A DNA stretch of 64,000 bases from Telopea speciosissima (taxonomy: Eukaryota > Streptophyta > Magnoliopsida > Proteales > Proteaceae): positions 68,065,557 to 68,129,556 of the forward strand of contig NC_057921.1 in the NCBI RefSeq assembly GCF_018873765.1, given 5' to 3'. Below the pieces are notes generated by a model. The model saw only the letters and a program-made list of their open reading frames with translations, was not told the DNA's origin and made no database searches. Each line of letters opens with the position of its first letter. Within the stretch, counting starts at the first letter, position 1. Position numbers and translations under genes: made by a program. Shown here piece after piece: positions 12,813 through 55,900 of the stretch.

Positions 12813-13198
12813 CCTATATATCTATCTTTTGGTTCTTCTTTCTGGGTGCTCAGAGATCTTGCAGAAGAAACAATCTCCTACCTAAAAAGAAAAGTGATAA
12901 TTCACCCTTCACATTTGTATTCACAAGGGTGTGAGCTTCTACTCCTTTCCTCTTTTTTTGTTTTTTTGTTTTTTAATTTTAATTCCCCCCACCCCCCTTC
13001 TTCTCTATCTTTCATTTCTCCTAACTCCATCCTGCATCCAAATAATATGATTCTAATTCTAATTTCAATCCACTGTTCCTTGGTTTCCTTTTTATTTTTC
13101 TGATTCCAGATCCCTTCCTTAAGCGCAGGAGCAGAAGCTAAGAAAATTTGACATCTGAGAGAGTGGTGGGGGAGAAGCTAGCAAGGGGGTGATACGAG
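12813..13198 (+). promoter_or_regulatory. Probable core promoter and 5' leader of the B3 gene
   Basis: A TATA-like CTATATATC lies near 12814-12822, about 380 bp before the start codon and just after a CT-rich tract. The leader then has a pyrimidine-rich stretch (12945-13010) ending in a possible 3' splice site near 13110, so a leader intron is possible. Both the transcription start and the intron are inferences from consensus only. Confidence 0.35.
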
Positions 13199-14821
13199 AT
13201 GGACTTTGCGGCGCTGGGAAGAGATGGGCTCCAACAGTACGACGAAGAAGATCAGGAGGAGATGATTGGAGATGTAGCAAGGAACCCAATGTTCTCGTCT
13301 TGCTCCTCTTCTTCTTCTTCGCCATCACCATCTTCTAATTATTCTCAGTATCACAAAGGCCTAATCCCACAGCAAAACTTGCGTTGGGGATCGCAGGCGT
13401 ACGACAAGCAGCTGAAGCAGCAGCAGCAGCAGCAACATCAGCAACATCAGCATCATCGGGTTTGGTTGGGGACGTTTGAGAATGAAGAAGAGGTCTTGGG
13501 GTCGACTGAGGCGGAGGCAGAGGCAGCTCAGCGGGAACAGGACCCCAGTTTCAGCCCAAGACTCGACCTCATGGACTTATCTTCTCATCACACTCAGAGC
13601 AGCAACTCCGATGCCGATGCCGGCGATGCTGCTGCTTCTGCTTCTGCTGGTTGTGGTGATGGTAGCAGTAGACCAGGCGGTGGCAGATGCTTCATCGAGA
13701 GAGAACACATGTTCGATAAGGTGGTCACACCCAGCGACGTTGGCAAACTCAACCGCCTCGTTATACCAAAACAGCACGCCGAGAAGTACTTTCCACTGGA
13801 CTCCACCATCAACGAGAAGGGACTTCTGTTGAGCTTCGAAGATCGCAACGGCAAGCCATGGCGCTTCCGATATTCCTACTGGAACAGCAGCCAGAGCTAT
13901 GTGATGACTAAAGGCTGGAGCCGGTTCGTGAAGGAGAAGAAGCTTGATGCAGGAGACATCGTGTCCTTCGAGCGCGGTGTGGGAGACTTGGGCAAGGACC
14001 ATCTCTTTATTGACTGGCGGCACCGCCCTGATGCCCATCACTCTACATCCTCACTCCAACCTCTAGGTCTACCACTCCGTCACCCACTCTCCCTGGCCGC
14101 TCCGCCGCCCGTCCCACTTCCATGGAGCCGATTGTTCATGCCCAACCCAACCCCAGCCCCAACCCCAACCCTCTCCAACCACATGCATTTCCACCATCAT
14201 CTCAATTACGACCGTACTACCCATGATCAACAACAACAACAACAACAACAACAACATCATCATCATCATCATCATCATCTGCTTCAACCCCATCTTAACC
14301 CATCCAATTACAGTAGTTACAGGTACAGTTACAGTGGTGGTGGTGGAAGTAGTAGGAGCTACGGGGGTTACAACTACAACGTGGTAAACCCAGGTTCAGG
14401 TTCAGGTTCAGGTTCGGTTTTTTACCTTAGATCATCACCACCACAGCCAGCCGCAGTCCCACAAGAAGTAGGGGTAGGGGTTGGGGTTGGGGATGTTCCG
14501 ATGGTTATCCAGTCGGTGCCAGTGGTCCATGGCAGGGCTGCAGCCAAGCGTGTTAGGCTGTTTGGTGTGAACCTGGAGTGTCCTACGCCGGAGGATGACC
14601 CAAACTCTTCTGATCAATGTGAGTTGTTGTCCTCCACCCCACTCCCCAATACAACAACAACAATAATGCCGCCTTCTCTCTCCCCTCATCACCTTCCTCT
14701 CTCTTCTTCATTCCCTCCTCTTGAATTAAGGGTTTACAGTGGCGCCCCACTACCCCAGGCACCGGCTGAGCTTCCAAGGAATAATTCTAAGCAGTCCCTG
14801 TCCTTCAATTTGGATATTTGA
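13199..14821 (+). CDS. NGA: NGATHA-type B3 transcription factor
   Basis: A single-exon 540-aa nuclear DNA-binding protein. The B3 domain spans about residues 170-278 and shows the RAV/NGA signature ([20 protein letters not shown], then [32 protein letters not shown], and FIDWRHRP). There is no AP2 domain before it, which separates it from RAV proteins. A conserved [10 protein letters not shown] repressor-type motif at about 453-462 and the C-terminal SLSFNLDI are typical of NGATHA proteins. NGA factors are known to control leaf margin growth and style and stigma formation, with auxin synthesis among their targets. Low-complexity regions are Ser-rich (33-48), Gln/His-rich (71-86), Gln-then-His (344-360) and Gly/Ser (380-407). 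Q and H tracts come from CAA/CAG/CAT repeats and may vary in length. The start was chosen as the first Met of the long frame, after an in-frame upstream stop. The exact NGA paralogue cannot be decided. Confidence 0.93.
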
Positions 14822-24928: not shown

Positions 24929-24942
24929 AAGGTACACTAGCT
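24929..24942. repeat. Left 14-bp target-site duplication of L1 element
   Basis: AAGGTACACTAGCT occurs here and again, identical, at 29630-29643. The pair brackets the L1 element and marks its insertion. Confidence 0.9.
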
Positions 24943-27900
24943 GCAGTTTGATCAGAACCCGTCCAACACCACTAGAGGGGAGCTGAGTAAAGAGAGGAAG
25001 GCCCTGAATGATGTTTTACTGCAGGAAGAAATCTTTTGGCTACAAAAATCCAAGGTGTGTTGGCTTCATGAGGGAGAAAGAAACACTAAATTCTTCCACA
25101 CCATGGTTAATGTGCGAAGAAGAAAGCAGCGTCTCTCTAAAATTAAAAATGGCAATGGAGAGTGGGTGACAAATGAAGCGGGTATTGCTAATGAAGCTGT
25201 TAGATTTTTCTCTGAGATTTTCAAGTCTCAAGGCAACCAGCATGATGAAAGTCTGCTGCAGGATATTTCTGAAGACGATAACAGATTTCTATTGGTGTCT
25301 CCTTCCTTGGAAGAGGTTAAGAAGGCGGTTTTTGGGCTCTCTGCGGATAGTGCCCCAGGCCTTGATGGATTCACAGGCTACTTTTAGACGGCCTACTGGG
25401 AGATCATTGGCAACGATGTTTGGGAGGCGATGAAAGACTTCTTTGCAAGTGGCTACCTGCCGTGATGCTACACTTCTGCTAACTTGGTCCTTATACCCAA
25501 AAAGGACAATCCAGAGGTAATGTCTGATTTTCACCCCATTAGCTTGTGCAATTTCTCTTACAAAATAATTTCTAAAATTATTTCTATAACACTGGCATGC
25601 TTACTCCCTTCTATTATATCGGAGGAACAAAGTGCTTTCATACAGGGCAGGAATATTCATGACAACATGGCTTTGGTGCAAGAGGTCGTTCAGGACATTA
25701 ACAGGGATACCCGTGGTGGCAATGTGATTATGAAATTGGATATGGCCAAGGCATATGACTATTTAGAATGGGATTTTCTGACCCAAGTCCTGAGGAAGTT
25801 TGGTTTTGCAGAGGACTGGATTAAGTTGATCATGAAGACGGTGGAAAACTGCTGGTTCTCGGTGATTCTCGATAATGGTCCTTCAGGGTTCTTCAAATCC
25901 ACGAGGGGGGTGCAACAAGGCAATCCCTTGTCCCCCTCGCTTTTTATCATTGCGGAGGAGGTCTTAAGCAGGGGATTAAGAACTCTTTTTGTTGAAGGTA
26001 GAGCAAAATTTTTTCAACTCCCATGGGGATGCCCAGGAATCTCTCATAGTGTAAGTACCGTGGTCCTCGGGACGAGGGTTCCTCAGCCTCTTGGCGACAA
26101 GGATTGGCTTCGATGAATAACGGTGTATCGTTTCGATATATCATCATGGGGATTGGGATCATGCTTTATAAAGAAATGGAGTCACCACCTAGGGTTAGGG
26201 CCTAGGACCCAATGGGTGTAGCCCCATCCGGGGTTAGCGAAAAGGGTTACGTGATTCCATATGGTCTAGTCAGAGATTCAGGGTAAGTAGTCAGGTTACG
26301 AGGGTGGGAAGGTGTTAGGCACCCATCTCGCTCGGATAAACCGATTTTTCTACTAGATGCTGGTTTTCGAATATTCTCCCTTAATAATATATCCTATACT
26401 AACATGTAAGGGTAAGTTATAATGCACTAATCATGACAAAGAAAGAAATATCATTTACTATGTACACTAAAATGAGTTACTTTAATTGTCTATAATATGC
26501 CAAAAATAATGAGAGGGAAGGAGAAATGAAAGCGCACAGAGGGCAAAATATGTGATGTCCCATGGCTCAGGTGGAGACGGACGATCGGCTTGTCTCTCTC
26601 TTGTCAGACAGAGTAAGGACTATATGAGATGGGTTTCGCTACTCAAACTTCGGGCAGAGTAATGGCTATATAAGGGATTCTTGTTATCTGTATACAGACA
26701 GAATAACGGCTATGAAGGGGGTTTTTCGTTATCCGTACACTGACGGGATAACAATACCCAAGAGCAGAATCGCTCTATGTTTGGATGGATAATCGAAGGA
26801 TCTACCCATGTCGAAGAACTCCACTCACTCACATACTCATGAGAGAAAAACGGAGGAAAAGAGGGTGAAAAGGGGGCAAAACAAGCCTTGGAGGGTCTCC
26901 TTACCCAAGAAAAGCTTGAGAAATGAGGGAGGGGGACCCTTCTATTTATAGGGAGGGGAGACCCTCACCCTTGGCCGGATAAGCCCTCCACGGTGCCGTG
27001 GGGGACTTTTTCACGGTGCCGTGGGTGACGTCAACAGGCTAATGTCACACCCCTTCATGGCGCCGTAGAAATCAAGTACATATCCCCACGGTGCTGTGGG
27101 AAGGAGCCCACGGCACCGTGGGGGCGCAATACCACTTTTCCTTTAGCGTTTAGTAAAAGGGTCGGATAAGTCATTTAGTAAAAAAGTTTAGTAAAAGGGT
27201 CTGATAAGTCATTTTAGAGATGTTAGGGTGATTTGGTTCAGATGTAGGGACAAGAGTCATTCTTGAGAGAGATACCGATGTCTGTCCGTGTCCTGTTGTC
27301 ATCATCGTCGGGGGGTAACAAAATTCAGCGTCTACACATAGCTTATTCGCTGATGACACTATTATATTCTCGAAGGGCCTGAAGTCATCTTTAAAACAAA
27401 TAATGGGGTTCATTGTGAGATACGAGGGCTTCTCGGGGCAGCTGGTGAACAAAGATAAGAGTTGCTTTGTTATGAGTGAGAAAGTGGAGGATCACCGACA
27501 GCGTATGGTGGAAGTGGTTATAGGCTTCTCAAGGAAGAAACTCCCCATTCTATACCTTGGTGCTCCTTTATTCACAGGGCGGCTGCGTGTTAGTTTCTTT
27601 GATGCTTTCCTAGCAAAAATGCGACAAAGGGTTGCTGGTTGGAAAGGGAAGTTGTTGTCTGCAGGTGGGAGATTGATCTTACTCAAGCATGTGCTCTCCT
27701 CGATGCCAATCCACCTCATGCCAACTTTGGACTTACCCAAGACGGTAATAAAACACTTTAATAGCATTTGTGCTAATTTCTTGTGGGGTAACTCGGAGTG
27801 GGGGAAACGACACCATTGGGTAGGTTGGGAGAAGGCCTGTAAACCGATCGATGAGGGCGACTTGGGAATCCGCAGGTTGGAAGAGATGGGCCTGGTGTTG

Positions 27901-29629
27901 CGCCTAAAAGGCCTATGGAGGATTTGGTCTTGTAACTCATTATGGAGTGCTTTCTTTAAAGCTAAATTACTCAAGAACAAGCATTTCACTCTTGTAGGGG
28001 GGAGGAGGACAGGGACGATCTCGTGGAGGAGAACTTTAATGCACAAAGAAACTTTTATTGCCAAATCTAGGTGGCTTATTGAAAGAGGTAATATTAGTTT
28101 TTGGCTGGATAACTGGTTAGGATGGGATGCCCTAGTGGATTATGTAGATGGAGCGATCCACCTTGACTTAAATCTTACCATCAAGGAGGTGCTTAACACG
28201 GCGGGGGAATGGAACTAAGAGATTTTGGCAAAGATTGATTCCAACCCGGTCAGGGACAGCTTGACAGCAGGCAAGTTTGCTCTCTCTGATAAGGAGGATT
28301 GGTTGGTGTGGACTCCGGCGAGCGATGGTTTGTTGACTGCCAAATCAGTTTGGAACAAAGTTAAAACCCCTTCCCCAAAGGTTTCTTTCACCAAATGGTG
28401 CTGGAACCGTTCGATTCCCACCAAGATAGGCTTCTTTACTTGGTAGGTGTTATGTGGGGGGGTCCCTACTGATGATGCTATAATGAAGATGGGAATCCCC
28501 CTTGCATCGAAATGCATGTACTGTGGACAGACAAGAAGGGAATCAGCTTATCACTGTTTGATTGCAGGTGGAATGGCCTGGAAGGTTTGGAGTTTTTTCT
28601 CTTCCTTGTGTGACATGGAGATGGTGCTTGGGCAAGGGGTGAGAAGTAGAATTTTTTTCTGGCACAGGCACGCCAAATTCGCTAACCTTGGTGGCAGGAT
28701 CATTGGTTTACTCCCCTCATTTATCATTTGGGAATTATGGAAAGAACGCAATAATCGCAGCCATGGAAAGCGATCTCGTCCTGCCAGCAGTATCATTGAG
28801 GTAATTAGACGTTGAATCAAGGAGATTCCATATGCACCCAATTCTAAAAAACCTCCCACTTTCAAAGAATCTCTGTTACTTCAATTCTTTTACAATCCCC
28901 ACCCCCTATTATCAACAAGCTTCCAATCCCAGCTTACTGGTGCCGCCCCCTTCTCCTTAGTTATGCTCAATCTGGACGGTGTGTGTAAAGGTAATCCTGG
29001 CATAGGGGGGGAGGAGGGATTATTAGGAACACTCAGGGGGATATAATTGCCGCATTTGCTAATTTTTACGGGACATGCACCAACTCTTTGGCTGAAATTC
29101 GGGCGTTAAGAAATGGCTTAAATTTGTGTGCTAAGTTGGGCTTCATAGATTTTTATGTCAAATCGGATTCGGCAGTAACCATGTTAAGCACCACAAGAAG
29201 GAAGTGTGGGCTTTGGGAAGGTTGGTACTGGTTCCAAGACATCGTAATGCTAATGGATTCCCTTAGACCGATGATATCCTTTACGTACCGTGAGGGGAAC
29301 AGAGCGACAGATTTTTTAGCGACTTTAGCTTGTACTTCAAAGTCGGACTTGGAATTTCATGGTGACTTGCATATACCTCAGGAGTTGCGTCGAATCATAA
29401 GGGAGGATGCGCTTGGCTTCCCAGTTTTGAGAAATAGGTAGTCCTCTTTGTTGGGGTTTTTGTATAGGGGTGAGCTGCTTTACTGAGTTTTTGAGGGATA
29501 TTTGTAAATTCACGGATTGGGGTAAGGCGGGAATGTCCCCCCCCCCCTTTATTCTTTATTCATTGGGTTTGATCGTAATAAAATCCTAGGGGCCAGCCCG
29601 GGTCCCAAATAAGTTCGGGTTAACAAAAG
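24943..29629 (+). mobile_element. 5'-truncated L1-type LINE, interrupted by a solo LTR
   Basis: Non-LTR retrotransposon of the plant L1 clade. Translated pieces in order are the region before the reverse transcriptase (WLHEGERNTKFFH, 25058-25390), RT fingers and palm (LVLIPKKDNPEVMSDFHPIS, then AFIQGRNIHDN and KLDMAKAYDYLEWDF, 25484-26044), the catalytic FADDT just after the inserted LTR (27342-27370), RT thumb (27403-28218), a zinc-finger RVT region (28225-28815) and RNase H (NLDGVCKGNPG and VKSDSAVTML, 28965-29440). The 5' UTR, ORF1 and endonuclease are missing. The frame has several stops (for example after 25384, at 28216 and at 28444) as well as the LTR insertion, so it is dead. A perfect 14-bp target duplication shows a single insertion event. 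The 3' end is GTTAACAAAAG rather than a long poly(A). Confidence 0.92.
26050..27336. mobile_element. Solo LTR nested in the L1
   Basis: The 1287-bp insert begins TGTAAGTACC and ends GCGTCTACA (TG...CA) and is flanked by the 5-bp direct repeat CATAG (26045-26049 and 27337-27341), as expected for an LTR-retrotransposon integration. No internal coding region is present, so it is a solo LTR left by LTR-LTR recombination. It is younger than the L1 it interrupts. Inside are imperfect repeats of about 60 bp around RAGTAAKGRCTATATRRG (26600-26750) and several copies of the near-palindrome CACGGTGCCGTG (26985-27125). The family (gypsy or copia) cannot be decided from an LTR alone. Confidence 0.88.
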
Positions 29630-45252: not shown

Positions 45253-48200
45253 CTATGTGGTGAGCTCCATAATGGCGCCCACTATATCCCCAGTGTGTGT
45301 CTTGAGAGCCTTGACAGCCTTGGCCCTTGACACTCCCGCCTGTGTCATCACCAAATCAATATCACGGGGCTCCACCCCTGTCTCGTCGACCTCCTCCTCT
45401 TCCTCATCAGCCTGTGAGGCAGCCGCGGCAGCAGAAACATCAGGTTTTGCCATTACTGATCCCATATCTGGCATCCTGAACTGTTGGGCAGCCTGTGTCT
45501 GCAGCTGAGAGCTTAAATCCTCAATCTTTGCCTCCCCAAATATGACGTATGTTTCAGAATTTGGGCTCTTGAATACATCAGGTTTGGAGATGACAAACAA
45601 TATCTGAAGGGTCCAGACCCCCCACCCCCAAAAAAAAAACAAAAACAAAAGATAAATTATTAATTTTTTTTTTCTAAGCTGTAGAAAGCTATCAATCTTT
45701 ATTGTCAGGAAGATTGCACAGACAGGATAATTAACCAAGACTTACATTTTTGGTCCTCTTAATTGTGACCCTACTAACACCCATAACAAGTTTCATCCCC
45801 AGCTTTAGCATCGCCTTACGGCTCTTTTTCTCACTTCTGCTCTGCTTTGAGCTCTCATTCGTCCCTGCACCTTGTTCACCTATTGACAGAATTTCATGGG
45901 CAAGTAAGACTTTCTTTCAAATAAACAAGGCGAGAAATGAAATATTTACAAAGTTGAAACCTAGATAGATCACAGAATGGTTAAGACTTGGAAGCACAAT
46001 AACTCTCACAGAAAGATGGTTTTTTTCCCAGGTGGATAAAATATGTCTTGTCATTAGATCATCGTGCTGAAACATGAGATGTGTGCAGAAGACCTTGGAA
46101 TCTACCTATCCATAGATTTTCACCAGAACCATCACAGAAAGATGTTAATAAGCTGTGGATTTAGAGATCTATACAGAATCAATTATGTTGCAAAAATTGA
46201 AAAGTTTTAAGCTTCAAAACAGACAAAAAATTGGATTTTTTATTACATATAATAATAAATTATATTGGAACAAGAAAATAAGCTATGACTACGGCAACAG
46301 CTGCGAGACGGCCCGCCTATAGTCACAACCAAGAGTGCCAGGGGGGGGGGGGACAGCAGGAAAGAGAGAAGTTACAATCTCACAAAGGCAACCTGTCTCC
46401 AAAAGGCCAAAACATAGCTTTGAACAGACGGCACCTAGTTTAGCCAAGTCATCAGTCTCCGTTGGCTTCCATTCAAAAGAAATGTTTGCTTGAGTGGCCA
46501 CTTCAGTAAACCTCACAGGTGCGGCTAGGGAAAAATGATTATGGGGTGAAATGGTCATTGGTATGGTATGGAGGCAAGAAACAACTGGAGGCCTAGATGT
46601 GGAAAAAATATATGATTCAAGCTTATAACAAACTACAAGAAACTTATAATTCTAGTGTTCTAACTTCTCAGCAACAACTCTACCTGCAAGCGTCAAGCAC
46701 TCTGTACTACACTACTACAAATGTACATTTAAACCCTAGTCCTACATCATTTGCATCTCATGCTTCAGAAGATCAAACACCGTAAGATAGAGACATGATT
46801 TGAAGAACAACTAAGAGTAACCAAGCACCATGTTATGCCTAAAACTTAGGTGTTTTTTAAGGTTTTCCATGCACCGATAAGGCCAAGTACTGACAAATCA
46901 GCAAAACTTTAAGGCTCTTTGGTTTCCACAGAAAAGCATAAACAAAACAGGTAGTGTAGCCTCCATGGGGCAGTCTGCAGAAGGAAGCCCATCAGCCCAT
47001 CTTGATAAACTTGAATCTTCAACAACACAAGTAGGAATCCTCATACCCTGCTTTTACTTTTTCTGTCCATCATCCACCTTGGAATTCCCCAATAAATGTC
47101 TCCATTCCAAATACATAATCCGAGTTAGAAGATGCAGGGATTATCTTGAGGAAAATATTTACAACCATGCCTGGCTATGCCAAACCCAAAGTGAATAGGA
47201 ATTGAAAATCACAAATTGCACTTATGATTAGGAAAGGGGAAAATGTTTTAGTTTTACTGAAATAAAATAAAATAAGTGGTGTATCTTGACCACAGATACA
47301 TTTGGCACCCATGGAGGACTCCACCCCCATCATATGATTGGATTCTTCTCCTCATTCAACCATGCCCAAGTGTACTTCCTTGTCATAACCAAACTAAAAG
47401 TTGAGAGATGGCAAAAAAACATTAAAAAAAAAAAAAAAAAACTTCGTTTTTCCAGGAAACTATTTTAAGGTGAAACAAACAATGCTCCAGCAGATTGAGA
47501 GGCAAAGCGCAATCCAAAAGACTGGATGAAAAACATCCAAGAAGCTCGAAAAATGTTCACCAATAAAACGAAATTAGCATTATATAACACAATAAAGATG
47601 TAAATCACAATTCAGATGGGAAAACAAAGAAATAGAATAGGATGATTGCAATATCAGTTGAAAATCTTGGTCAGTCAGTCATCATAAAGATAACACAACC
47701 AAGAGAATCCAACTTTAAGGAAATTCTCACTAAAGGTTTGACATAAATATGGAGAGAATCAAAGCAAGAATACTGCTCTTAGAACACTTTTAGGCTAACA
47801 TACAGAAATTACAGGTGTAAGTAGGGTCCACGAACATATGAGGTCTCATTGGGATCAAAAAACTCAAATATGTAAGCAGCTCCCTGCATTCTAAATATGT
47901 TACTTAATCATCAGACTGCGCTCAAAACATTCAACATTATTTAGCACAAAAACATTTGTACCTGCTCCGTAAAGCGAACAATGGAATTACACAAGGGGAA
48001 GGGGTGGGGATGGGGAAGAGATTAAGCACTCCCCTAAATCACTGCAAGATTTTTTAAAACAAAATTTATCAGCTTTGAGAATCAAGGATAGATCTCACAG
48101 GCAACAAAGAGTACTTAGATACTCATAACCTACAGACTAAAGCAAAACAAAATCTAGGGCATATAGTACGGTTTCGTCAAACAAAAGTGAGAACAGCAAG

Positions 48201-48610: not shown

Positions 48611-49109
48611 TGTGCAGAACCACCACAATTCTGTGCTCTGCAACTTCCAATAAGGTAAATGAGAAGATAGTGTGAGAGTGTGAGGGCTTCTCCTCACCTT
48701 CCCTCGGCCTCACGATGACATTATCACTTATTATGGGGCTTGCGTGATACTCCTCCGGAGCACGAAGTCTGTTGATCCGTCGATCTCATGAGCGTTCAGT
48801 TGGTGGGCCACCTAAATGTTGCCTAGGACACTTTTTGGGATCGATTGATTAAAAATTATAACAGTGCTAATCTAGATCATATCCTCTCTATTCCATTCCA
48901 TTGATGGGAATATATTTCTTCTTAACCAAAAATAGAATAGACATATCATCGGTCTCTCTTTAATTTTAATTTTGTTGAATGAAATAAATAGGTTAAATAA
49001 TTTTGGTGTGCTTATCCGCAGTATATAACGAGCTTAAGTCCCTACAAAAATTAAAAATTAAAAAATTCCCTTAAAAGGAACGGTAACAAATATTAGGCAA
49101 AAGTTTCTC
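48611..49109 (-). promoter_or_regulatory. Upstream region of NAC-alpha
   Basis: About 500 bp between the NAC-alpha start codon and the Pack-MULE. It should hold the leader and promoter. No TATA box in a convincing position was seen. Its outer end (49101-49109) is the target duplication of the transposon, so the insertion lies close to the promoter. Confidence 0.4.
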
Positions 49110-50937
49110 GGGAAATTTACATATACTATTTTGACGAAAGGATATTTTCACCCCAGATTTAGAAAATTCTGTGTACCCCTGAGATTTACAAAGAGTAACA
49201 AATAAGCTCGTTCCATCAGTTCATGACTAACACTGTTACAAATTAAACTTGAACTGATGGAATTGCCCTTCTACTAAAAAACCGAAAAAAAAAGAAACCA
49301 AAAAACAAAACTTGCCCCAACTCATCTTCTCCAAAATCGATTGGGGAAGGTGAGTTGCAACCATCCCAGTGCCCCCATTGATTCGTTAAAACCGTTTGCC
49401 ACTCAATCGCTCCTCTTCAACCTCTTTGCCTGAACCGAATCGTCACCATCTTCACCATCACTCTCTGCTCCACCCTCAAACCCTAACCCTAAACTTGATT
49501 CAGGAATGTTACCGAACAGAAAGTTCCCCAATAAGATCAGCGTCTCAAGCCGATTTCCAGAACAGAGATCCGGAGGAAGAATCCCCGTCAGCTTGTTCGA
49601 CGACAAATCGAGGAGCTGAAGCTTGCCATTCCTTCCAAGTCCCTGAGGAATACTTCCAGTAAAATTATTCTCCCAAAGCTGCAACACTTCCAACTCGGGC
49701 AAATAACCAATGAAATCTGGAATCGCCCCGTGCAACTTGTTCCTGAACAAATTCAACAGCGTTAGATTCTTCAGCTCCGCAAAAGATTCGGGAATCTCAC
49801 CGGAGAACATATTGTTGGAGAGATCCATTGATTTCAAGCTCTTCAGATTGCTTTGGGGGTGTGAAAGACAGAGTGACTCAAAAGAATAAGAAGAAGAAGA
49901 AGAAGAAAAGGAAGGAAGTGAGAAGAAGTGTGTGGTGATGAGGAAGGTGAAGGAGATGTCCTGTGCGGCACTTTTCAAAATATTTGGCAAGTTATTTTCG
50001 TGCACCACAACCGTGGATGTGGCGGATCATCGGGAGCTTTGACAGAGTCACTCGGATTCATTCCCTGCTGCTCTGTTCTTAGTTGCCTTTTGTTTTGTTT
50101 TGTTTATCTTTCTTCTAATTTGATTTTTGATTATATCTTCAATCAGGGTTGGGTTTTGGGTGTCTCTAGTCTCCTTCTGTGTGTTCTTCGTTGAAAATTT
50201 AGCAGAACAGGTAGATGCCCATTATGGGCTGTAACTTGTAATTACTTAATAGTTTCAGTCTTTGCTTAATGGGAGAACTGATGGGATTGCAGGGAAGAAT
50301 GTTTAAATTAGATGTTGTGGCTCAGTGGGTCTTATTGTTATTGTTGTTGTTTTTAAGTAATGTTTGTGAATCCTGGGTAAGGAAGCAAAATAAAGTGATC
50401 CAGAAGAACTAAAGCTTGGCCTGCAGGTTTTGTCCTTTTGATCATGCCCAGGCCCCAAATTCCTGTAGTCTGAACATGGTTAGACTTCATAATCATGGAG
50501 GCTGCTGTTATGTTCATCAATTGGTGCGTGCTTGTGTGGAGACATTCCAGTTCTGGAGTGAAGCTCCTGGGTCGTCTGTAATGGCGGATTCAGGGAGAGC
50601 AGAACTCGGTATTCCGGGAAATGAGATTGTTTCCCGGTAACAAATGGGTTGTTGAGTAGGTTGAGCAGAAGTAGAATTAGAAATCGCACTTTTTCTTCTT
50701 GATTTCTAAAAATCAGAGTTTGGAGAAGATGAGTTGCAGGTTTTTTATTTTTTTTTGATTTCTTCTCAGAAGGACAATTCCATCAGTTCTAAGTCTAATT
50801 TTTAACAGTATTAGTCATGAACTGACGGAATGGACTTATTTGTTACCGTTTGCAAACTTCAGGATACGCAGAATTTTCCAAAACTGGGGTGAAATATCCT
50901 TTAGCCAAACCTCAGGGGTGGTATGTGTAAATTTCCC
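49110..50937. mobile_element. Pack-MULE (Mutator-like element with captured gene pieces)
   Basis: The 1828-bp element begins GGGAAATTTACATA and ends TATGTGTAAATTTCCC. It is bracketed by a perfect 9-bp direct repeat AAGTTTCTC (49101-49109 and 50938-50946), the diagnostic Mutator-superfamily duplication. The terminal inverted repeats are long, about 230 bp (49110-49341 and 50706-50937), and clearly alignable: CACCCCAG, TCAGTTCATGACTAA, ACTGATGGAATTG and AACTCATCTTCTCCAAA occur in both arms in opposite sense. No transposase is encoded. The interior holds host-derived sequence, including a piece of an LRR receptor kinase, so it is a Pack-MULE. The arms differ at roughly 15-20% of positions by eye, so it is not very recent. 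Confidence 0.93.
49403..50008 (-). pseudogene. Chimeric ORF with BAM/CLV1-type LRR fragment
   Basis: A 201-codon open frame inside the Pack-MULE. Residues about 54-171 (49849-49496) are LRRs closely like the ectodomain of BAM1/BAM2-type CLAVATA1-family receptor kinases: [80 protein letters not shown], then [20 protein letters not shown]. Signal peptide, remaining LRRs, transmembrane segment and kinase are absent. The first 50 residues are of unknown, Ser-rich origin, and the last 28 ([26 protein letters not shown]) are acidic then basic and come from another source. It is therefore a three-part chimera. Whether it is transcribed or translated is unknown. If transcribed in either sense it could affect the parental receptor gene by small RNA, which is inference. 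Confidence 0.85.
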
Positions 50938-50946
50938 AAGTTTCTC

Positions 50947-52984: not shown

Positions 52985-55900
52985 TCAAGTTGAAGCTTCC
53001 CCTCCCAAACATATCCTCTTAGGACCTTTCTGTTCTCCTTGGCCACTACCACTTGCCAGCTTGTCTTCCTTGGCTTCAAGTGAACACCTTTTGTATGGTT
53101 TAAATCCAGCTCGACGACCTTTCAGCCTTGCATGCCCAAGCTCCGTCATCAGCAATCCCACCTCAGGATTGTTACTGCTTCTCAGTGATTCATATTTCTC
53201 CACTCCTGGATGATCTAGACAAGTACTCCATGTCTTACTACTCAGATCTACCTGCAATGTGTCCTCTTTGCCTTTCTCATTTCCTTCTTTGGAACTTGAC
53301 CTTGGATGCTCATTGCTCCTCGGATCATAATGGTGAGGTGAAAAGCTCTGTGGCAGTACTTCTCTAGAGAAAAGTGCTTGAAAGGCAAGCCGACCCTGAC
53401 AAAATTTAAAATCATTTTGAGTGTAATATTCAAGACGATACAAATCAGAAATCTGTGTCCAGAAAGAACTGTCCAATTACCTCTTCTGAGACCTCCTTCC
53501 AGGACTCATTCATGTTACTGGTACTTCTATTGCGACGATTATTTGGCTCAACAGATGCAGGGCTTAAATCAATTTCTTTCAACTCTTCCTCACCTTTCTC
53601 ATTCTTCTCTATTGCATCTGTCTCTACTTCACTGCTGGAAGCTGTGTTGGAGCCACATGAGGAGCGGTCAACCTGTTTTTTTGCATCAGCCTTGTTGGAC
53701 TCATGGAACCCAGGATCCTGCACAGGCTTCTGCATATGATCTTTCAGTTCACTGCTGTTTGACCTAGTACCTCCACTCTCAGAATTTGATGATGAGGCAG
53801 GTGGAGACTTGGATGCTGAGTCTTTTTTCACAGCCTCAGAGAATTCAGGATCCAGTTGTTGATCTTCCCAAGGTGGATCCTGAGAAGTGTTGTCCTTTTT
53901 ATCTTTATTGACTACTGTGGGTTGACCAGTATCTGTTGATCGAATTTCAGTGGGTAGTGAAGAAACACAATTAAAACCAGTGTGAAGAGGAGGGCACAAC
54001 GGCAACAGTCCATGGGCTGCCCACCATGCAGATGCAGCTGCAACAGTAGCAGCAGCAACTGCTTCCATACTAGGAGGTGGACTAATCTGTCTTAATGGAA
54101 TCCCTCCGAGAGTACCAGATGAAGAATCTACCCAAGCTTCCATATTCGTGCAGGGCCAGAATGAAGCAGCCAGGCTTGCTGCAGCATGGGCGGCTGGGTT
54201 TTGCAGCAGAGTAGATACAAGAAGACTTGAAAAAGTAGCAGAAAAGTTGAGAAAGGATCCGTAAGTTTCTTGATTGTTGCACAATGGGGTGAAGGGGGGA
54301 AGAAAAGTTGGCAAGGGTTGGTGAACAGAAGGCCTTGACATGTTACTGTGGTGTTCACTACTTGCAGAAGTGGTTGGCTTTGTGAACAGGTTTGGGTTTC
54401 CATGAGCTCCCCCAACTTGGTGCATGATGGGTGTAGGGTATGTCATATCAGGGCCCAGAGTTTGCATGCATGTTCCTGAGATACCATCCACAAATTGCAA
54501 AGGAACATGTCTTGGGAAATTCTGATTTGTTTGCATTTCCTCTGTGGAGAACAGGCCAAGCATTTCTGGCTTGTTTGGTTCATCTGTTATTGCTTCTTGG
54601 ACCTGTTCATCATGGGAACTTGGACTGGATTTCTCCAAGTTCAGGGTTTCAATGACACCATTATTCATTTCTGTATAGTCGGCATCGGTTCTGTCCAATT
54701 TCTTACTCACTTTGGTTTTGACGGTGAGATGGGATTCATCAGTTGTACCCTGGTCATTTATATCTTTTATTGAGGGTACGAACTCCTTGAAGTGAGATGA
54801 ACTTTCAAGTGCAAAAGATTCTGGTATGCAGTTTTTGCTTACAGAAGAGTAGGAAGTGCAGGGAACTTCATGGAAAAGAGTGAGGACTTCCGAGCAGTTG
54901 TCCTGATTCAGAGTTTCTTTTGCCCTAGCAGATTTCTCATAATGAGCAGGTTTCTGATGGTGCAACAGAAAAAGAATTAGAAATAAAAGAAGGAAACTTG
55001 GAGCATAAACAGAATAGACTTAAAGGATAAGATACATACCTCATGTGGTGGGCCATTCTCCAAGTCCAGTGGTTGTTTACCAGCATGCAGATGCGAAGCT
55101 GGTGTCAACAGTTTTCCATCATTGACAAGAGAAGACTGAGGAGCCCCTGTGCTGGTCTTTCGAGGATATGGATTGCTTGGTTTCCTTTTAGGACGTGCAG
55201 GAGGTATCTCTATGTCAAGAGCTTGTCCAAGTGGTATGCCTTTGATAAGAGACACTTTTTCCAACTGAAATAAAATTATCATTTGTTAGAACAGGAAGCT
55301 TGGATTCAATTATGCAAGGGTGTTTAGTTCAAAAAGCAGCAAATCAGAAATCTGTCAAGATTCGCATGGGACACTCTTTCGTTGGCTGATGGAATGCAGA
55401 TATCTGACTCATACTAAACGGAAGTGCAAGTTCCCAGAGAGAAGAAAAACTGAAAAGTCTACACCATTAGGCATTGCCTAGTTATACTGACATGTTATAA
55501 ACAAATCCAATGAATTCACAAAATCATCCCTGCAGCTGCCTCCATTCACGTTTCAGTAAATTGATATTTGAGAACTTTAGACATTCAAGTAGAATAACTC
55601 TTTCCGTGATCTACATGTAATAATTGGAAGATTAATTAGGTTACTCATGCAATAAATTGATTAGGTCATCAGTTTTTTTCTTTTTCTTTTTTACTTTTTT
55701 GTTTTTAAATTTATTATTTGTACATAGGTAAATGGCCAAATCATGTATACAACAATGCACAATTTCCAAGTAGGCTAGAAAGCCATATTTAATGCTCTGG
55801 CACATTCAATATAGATATCCAAAAAAGAAAACATTAAGTAACAAAGGAATGTAACTAGAACTTGCAGCATGAAATTAATAAACGCAAATTCAATAAAATA

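Follow-up and report, generated by a model that had tools for sequence, protein, structure and literature searches.

The window, a stretch of 64,000 nucleotides of the Telopea speciosissima genome (C6:68065557-68129556), contained a Mutator-type insertion at positions 49110-50937 (hereafter W). It also contained a B3-domain gene identified by Pfam (13193-14821, plus strand), which we take to be NGATHA-like, a set of broken LINE-type reverse transcriptase frames recognized by eye (24941-29441) and a frame for a NAC/HYPK-UBA protein (45253-45741, minus strand). About 2 kb from W, open frames on the minus strand (52985-55019) gave no Pfam match and presumably represent the end of an LHY/CCA1-type clock gene. 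The features of the insertion are listed below, with parent positions numbered along the 1.5-kb stretch L092.

49101-49109, unstranded: left copy of the target site duplication, AAGTTTCTC, the same as 50938-50946
49110-49342, plus strand: left terminal inverted repeat (TIR), 233 bp, starting GGGAAATTTACA and aligning to the right arm
49343-49500, plus strand: transposon subterminal sequence, at least 130 of its 158 bp being present at 77-95% identity in 12 of the 31 fetched elements outside W's group
50008-49403, minus strand: reported 201-codon frame (foreign middle, LRR block and subterminal tail), with a GTG start only
49828-49403, minus strand: ATG-started part of that frame, 141 codons (LRRs and tail), without a signal peptide, the first ATG being codon 61
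49497-49851, minus strand: captured piece B, about five LRRs (counted by eye), 349 of 355 positions identical, ungapped, to parent 1021-1375
49849-50539, unstranded: foreign middle segment, unrelated to BAM; interior positions 507-1197 match C1:12356929-12357660 (L094) at 90% over the whole length
50535-50707, minus strand: captured piece A, the 5' end with the start-codon and signal-peptide region, 165 of 174 positions identical to parent 165-338
50711-50937, minus strand: right TIR, 227 bp, pairing with the left arm
50938-50946, unstranded: right copy of the target site duplication, AAGTTTCTC, perfect over 9 bp

W is a complete Mutator-type insertion, and the sequence-only reading that had called it so was right on the strength of the perfect 9-bp duplication and the 233- and 227-bp inverted ends. 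The two arms aligned with 187 matches, 30 mismatches and 8 gaps (187/217 aligned pairs), a K2P distance of 0.156. A structure scan for 9-bp repeats, made up of three or more different letters, that directly flank 20-bp inverted ends (at least 15/20 matches) returned two matches in the window, of which W was the better (17/20) and the other weaker and of low complexity, and one match in total in 40 locally shuffled windows (two sets of 20). No transposase was found by Pfam at E-values up to 0.1 in five whole frames and in frame -2 up to the LRR block, a coverage that leaves out about 140 residues at the left end of frame -2, past the stop of the 201-codon frame; LRRs were the only protein domains in the frames so scanned. 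The claimed absence of a transposase therefore held in five whole frames and most of the sixth. Long TIRs (233/227 bp) and, with those 140 or so residues outside the scan, the lack of a transposase are both characters of Pack-MULEs. Target site duplications of Pack-MULEs are about 8-11 bp long and different at each insertion.

A search of the genome with the interior of W matched one BAM-type locus twice (C5:16.03 Mb; C5:16027764-16028974), with 98% identity for piece B and 95% for piece A. This locus is the intact BAM-like parent that had been supposed to lie elsewhere in the genome, and within the 1.5 kb read it was open from its ATG (position 183) onward, encoding, as judged by eye, a BAM-type ectodomain with a signal peptide, an N-terminal cap and LRRs. 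The near identity of piece B to this parent (349/355) confirmed the capture of a BAM-type receptor fragment. The LRR stretch seen earlier stood, but the view of a single captured piece did not, the second BAM piece (50535-50707) having been overlooked. Pieces A and B are colinear in the parent. Judged from 1.5 kb of the parent without its flanks, W carries host-gene fragments from an apparently TIR-less parent, a further character of Pack-MULEs. A paralogous locus at C4:12.466 Mb matched both pieces at 86% and 82% (search match alone).

Pfam analysis of piece B recovered LRR_1 with four stretches, plus LRR_8, and only LRR models scored above their cut-offs on the 201-codon frame. Compared with Arabidopsis sequences that we assume to be accurate, the LRR block was identical at 100 of 117 positions to BAM1, 72 of 116 to CLV1 and 68 of 117 to BAM3. 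Against the PDB, the best 60 of 236 matches were mostly plant LRR receptors, none of them named BAM. Relatives of the LRR block in viral contigs (2 among 15 stretches) and genome contigs (43 among 161) were viral or bacterial with 30-49% identity, and were discarded as irrelevant to the parent.

The foreign middle between the two pieces measures 683 bp and the parent stretch that it replaces 682 bp. The C1 locus matching the middle (C1:12.36 Mb; L094) contained neither a TIR nor a BAM match in the 1.7 kb read, making it the donor of the middle or a relative of the donor, and the scanned part of a neighbouring frame there gave no Pfam family. The subterminal sequence, which also occurs on both arms of another element (L065), recurs in 12 of 31 elements outside W's group, so that it either belongs to the transposon itself or was acquired by the family much earlier; what had been read as a third piece is thus no capture by W. 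The proposed fusion of the receptor to two unrelated pieces consequently stood upstream, where the sequence is foreign and related to C1:12.36 Mb, and fell downstream, where it is transposon subterminal sequence. The exact bases that W has in common with both contributors at each join were GATT (subterminal/B), TGC (B/middle) and TG (middle/A), only 2-4 bases each and given without a chance expectation.

Full-length copies of the interior besides W were found at C5:58.79, C11:10.51, C8:2.98, C4:55.77 (two copies, C4a and C4b) and C3:11.62 Mb, with 40 of 150 candidates scored. A further, slightly shorter copy on the small contig C706 (search match alone) may be an alternative haplotype. Seven full-length copies, W included, were compared and each had its own insertion site. 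The duplication was a perfect 9 bp in W, C3, C8 and C11 and matched at 8/9 in C5, and across the seven copies it was different at each insertion, as in Pack-MULEs, the C4 pair being taken with its spacer read inverted. In W, the start codon of piece A reads GTG (50689) and a 1-bp gap breaks its frame. The ATG at the start of piece A is kept in C3, C8, C4a, C4b, C5 and C11 and in the relatives L093 and L096, and the frame from it runs for 57 codons in C8, C4a, C4b, C5 and C11.

Rearranged relatives recorded how the BAM sequence was acquired. L093 (C5:61.64 Mb), which is bounded by ends of the same kind, contains parent 160-641, 887-1010 and 1037-1374, L096 (C2:69.48 Mb) holds parent 160-366 and 1246-1374, and the C11 copy holds parent 160-338 and 1021-1375. 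The outer endpoints, parent 160 and 1374-1375, are common to all three and the middles differ, which argues that about 1.2 kb was captured once and remodelled afterwards. These arrangements point to a BAM sequence that probably entered by a single capture and was then reshuffled. Separate capture of pieces A and B from the parent would accord with their standing apart in W around a foreign middle and with the lesser likeness of A (95%) than of B (98%) to the parent, yet the three parent stretches of L093 lie between the same endpoints, and we regard two separate captures as distinctly improbable. Other matches were partial: copies at C9:1.18 and C9:6.96 Mb (the latter from a search match alone) have a common deletion of interior 168-368, and at three loci (C10:12.33, C2:2.52 and C1:19.71 Mb) the match ends at interior position 416 (search matches alone). 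The first C9 copy (C9:1175084-1182881; L086 and L055) is split by several kb of other sequence.

Searched with the left end alone, the 822.9-Mb assembly yielded no fewer than 40 additional matches (80-86%), with 40 of 1882 candidates scored. The ends thus do occur in other copies, as had been anticipated. From 38 stretches fetched over left-end matches, 36 elements with two ends were taken, leaving out L087, where one end was seen, the split copy represented by L055 and L086, and the second pair of ends in L071. In 32 of the 36, a duplication of 8-10 bp with at most one mismatch was present, duplications being searched within 4 bp of the ends in flanks that are AT-rich. The 36 interiors and that of W fell into 22 groups at 60% mutual cover. 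Ten frames picked by eye from the longest frames of these groups were run against Pfam, and seven matched host-gene families (GT47, GH17 twice, the argonaute N-terminal domain, homeodomain-leucine zipper and LRR twice), indicating that the TIR family collects many kinds of gene fragment. Among individual elements, L063, L065, L060 and L062 have the same kind of ends and captured argonaute (ArgoN), HD-Zip, GT47 and GH17 pieces. A 344-codon stop-to-stop frame in the element at L073 1790-3397 consists of a GH17 stretch and an unrelated part, which we take to be PEX3-like, and is a larger chimera than the 201-codon frame of W. Two more LRR gene captures were seen in L072 (1898-3351, with an LRRNT_2 cap) and L074 (1426-3369), and beside its counted element L071 has another pair of these ends that is more diverged (337-1813; 78-80%).

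The three-part frame of 201 codons is open in W, as first described, but it starts only at a GTG and is in phase only in W of six copies. The upstream block measures 198 in W compared to 200, 202, 199, 196 and 202 in the five others, off by 1 or 2 modulo 3 in every one of them, and the three-part frame is therefore peculiar to W. A GAA/TTC microsatellite of the foreign middle (about 49885-49915) sits in this length-variable block, which decides the phase of the upstream part with the LRRs. The outer parts also stayed open by chance in dinucleotide shuffles, the upstream part (59 codons) in 1654 of 5000 and the downstream part (29 codons) in 790 of 5000. With no ATG before codon 61 and the upstream part out of phase in 5/5 other copies, the 201-codon frame is, on its sequence, fortuitous. 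A single-sequence AlphaFold model of the frame (mean pLDDT 34.6) was set aside as useless.

Changes within the LRR block were compared across copies. Among seven copies, 31 distinct changes were counted, 8 silent and 23 replacement or stop, a ratio 0.85 of the neutral expectation by sites (P = 0.41). When the decayed C3 copy was omitted, the counts were 7:12 (ratio 0.51, P = 0.12), which leaves room for weak constraint. Singletons were as frequent in the LRR block (27/2058) as in the rest of the interior (66/6000; P = 0.47; six copies, gapped columns dropped). The counts fit an LRR block that drifts neutrally, with little power against weak constraint.

The captured stretch had also been proposed as a raw new LRR protein, secreted or intracellular. 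In favour of a frame encoding such a protein under selection, the ATG-started frame of 141 codons is open in four of six copies (W, C8, C4b and C5), the LRR codons of W contain no stop, and silent changes are slightly in excess once C3 is omitted. Set against this, there is no upstream ATG and no signal peptide, the tail is transposon sequence, the frame is broken by frameshifts in C3 and by a stop in C4a, and 23 of the 31 distinct changes replace or stop a codon. The three-part frame in particular has no ATG and a phase peculiar to W, and does not support the proposal. A functional MULE-derived gene would show constraint on its frame; the changes here ran 8:23 and the frame was broken in two of six copies. 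A selected LRR protein is thus extremely improbable. Among the options that the sequence-only reading had offered, a neutral fossil fits best, given LRR changes of 8:23 and singletons as in the other interior.

The ends of the element had changed more than its interior. K2P distances between six copies were 0.069 for the left end, 0.091 for the right end and 0.020 to 0.032 for the interior parts, and the distance between the two ends within an element was 0.156 in W compared to 0.045-0.074 in the five others. Singletons per site were more frequent in the ends in five of the six copies, significantly so in W, C8, C4b and C5 and not in C4a; those of C3 ran in the opposite direction (2/425 in the ends, 27/1343 inside). 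Dating the insertion of W by the divergence of its ends, and hence taking its intact LRR block as a sign of constraint, was rejected on account of this faster gathering of singletons in the ends and because the LRR block showed no greater conservation than the other interior parts.

With ancestral bases assigned by majority, columns without a majority dropped, related copies contributing non-independent sites and loci (C11 excepted) chosen by likeness to W's left end, C>T/G>A changes at CHH sites in the seven copies numbered 48/826 in the ends compared to 21/2838 in the interior (P = 5.5e-17), a density about eight times higher. The excess was also present without W (33/716 and 18/2434). C>T changes at CG sites were likewise denser in the ends (10/138 compared to 9/475, P = 0.0035), as were reverse transitions (18/1955 compared to 24/5432, P = 0.022). 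C>T at CHG did not set the ends apart from the interior (7/238 compared to 18/821, P = 0.47), and the difference in transversions was small (25/3185 compared to 49/9566, P = 0.081). Divided more finely in six copies, CHH C>T changes numbered 40/689 in the ends, 3/360 in the subterminal part, 2/538 in the LRR block and 13/1533 in the other captured interior; the rate falls at the TIR edge and is already low in the subterminal part. C>T at CHG was as frequent in the LRR block (49501-49852 in W; 10/249) as in the ends (9/224; six copies), so that the LRR piece, too, may carry some methylation. Of three other groups, each with three copies, one only showed a clear CHH excess in the ends, with pooled counts over the three of 31/1127 and 26/2153 (P = 0.0018), and pooled reverse transitions numbered 21/2510 in the ends and 17/4462 in the interior (P = 0.017).

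CHH methylation is a mark of RNA-directed DNA methylation, and the CHH excess can on that basis be read as long-standing targeting of the ends by small RNAs. The mutation pattern is consistent with CHH methylation aimed at the ends far more than at the interior. The ends might alternatively owe their divergence to gene conversion with diverged ends of the family, an unlikely but serious alternative: many related ends exist, the ends of W are the most diverged within an element (0.156) and reverse transitions are also denser in the ends, although it is mainly C>T at CHH and CG sites that is in excess there, and transversions only slightly so.

Two of the copies, C4a and C4b, lie head to head with a 47-bp spacer (L057 1227-4958; C4:55771226-55774957), forming arms of 1.83 kb. 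Over 1851 aligned columns the arms agree at 96.3%, and each contains BAM sequence. Flanking duplications are absent around both copies as the sequence stands. With the spacer read inverted, AAAAAACAA stands on both sides of one copy (9/9) and ATTTAACAA/ATTTAATAA around the other (8/9). The simplest account would be that the two copies inserted separately and that recombination between them then inverted the spacer. RNA from the pair could form a hairpin matching BAM; positions starting a 21-mer common to the 1.5-kb parent stretch number 633 in the pair and 247 in W.

The family may on these grounds give rise to small RNAs silencing its BAM parent, as the sequence-only reading had also suggested, with double-stranded RNA, chiefly from the C4 pair, being cut into 21-24-nt RNAs. 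The likeness of the two arms and the 21-mers common to the parent would favour this, and there are precedents in maize, where PMC13317346 reports captured-gene elements as siRNA reservoirs against donor genes and PMC3440606 describes Mu killer, an inverted Mutator copy, as thought to make hairpin RNA. The cargo, however, lacks the CHH footprint of the ends, a weak point of this explanation in the LRR block and other interior alike. The footprint argument is itself weak, since 21-nt RNAs acting on mRNA would leave none and CHG changes in the LRR block are about as frequent as in the ends. We consider silencing of the parent by the family improbable. The fuller proposal, in which the C4 pair is a natural hairpin locus whose RNA guides CHH methylation to the ends and at the same time reduces expression of the BAM parent, appears very improbable.

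The preferred reading, to which we assign a probability of about 0.87, is that W is a Pack-MULE, a non-autonomous Mutator-like element belonging to a large TIR family, and that its BAM cargo is drifting neutrally. As the sequences show, an ancestor took up a single stretch of a BAM1/2-type gene that begins shortly ahead of the start codon and reaches about the 14th LRR (counted by eye), and in the lineage of W the middle consists of about 690 bp of foreign sequence; capture and replacement were both presumably by template switching or gap repair. The mosaic stands at seven insertion sites with separate duplications, plus the C706 copy, and would have been moved by transposase supplied in trans. 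The cargo would be without function and drifting neutrally, and host CHH methylation, as suggested by the mutation pattern, would erode the ends.

W belongs to the known Pack-MULE kind and is an ordinary element with an unusually readable history. In PMC4858842 and PMC8903248, rice is credited with more than 3000 Pack-MULEs and Pack-type elements with pieces from several loci are already known; according to the first of these sources, few of the MULE-derived candidate genes of rice show constraint. PMC4053705 counts 1,447 Pack-MULEs in the lotus genome. The Pack-MULEs of rice, lotus and other plants have, like W, TIRs, target site duplications, no transposase and host fragments often from more than one locus, whereas in W one capture is seen in several rearranged descendants with the open parent surviving, and the ends bear a CHH C>T footprint. 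Pack-TIRs of animals (PMC8277862) resemble W in microhomology at capture and in gap-filling or template-switch models, while W is a multicopy plant MULE with cargo from other chromosomes. The C4 pair resembles Mu killer of maize in being Mutator-type sequence arranged as an inverted repeat that could fold into a long hairpin; it differs in being best explained as two adjacent independent insertions, in carrying receptor cargo and not transposase, and in being known from sequence alone. With the BAM1/BAM2 receptor kinases, W shares an LRR block nearest BAM1, from a parent frame whose start is signal-peptide-like with an N-terminal cap by eye, whereas W has only two ectodomain pieces and no transmembrane or kinase part. 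Among the matches listed, no open-licence paper joined Pack-MULEs or gene capture with BARELY ANY MERISTEM or CLAVATA1.

The family offers a worked case of how a mosaic cargo is built, with the parent, the rearranged relatives and the amplified product all in one genome. The mutation footprint appears to set host silencing of the ends apart from the cargo; it needs no methylation data and is measurable in any genome. C4:55.77 Mb provides a named locus for a possible small-RNA effect on a CLAVATA-pathway receptor and, if the hairpin reading of that pair were true, it would tie transposon control to a meristem receptor.
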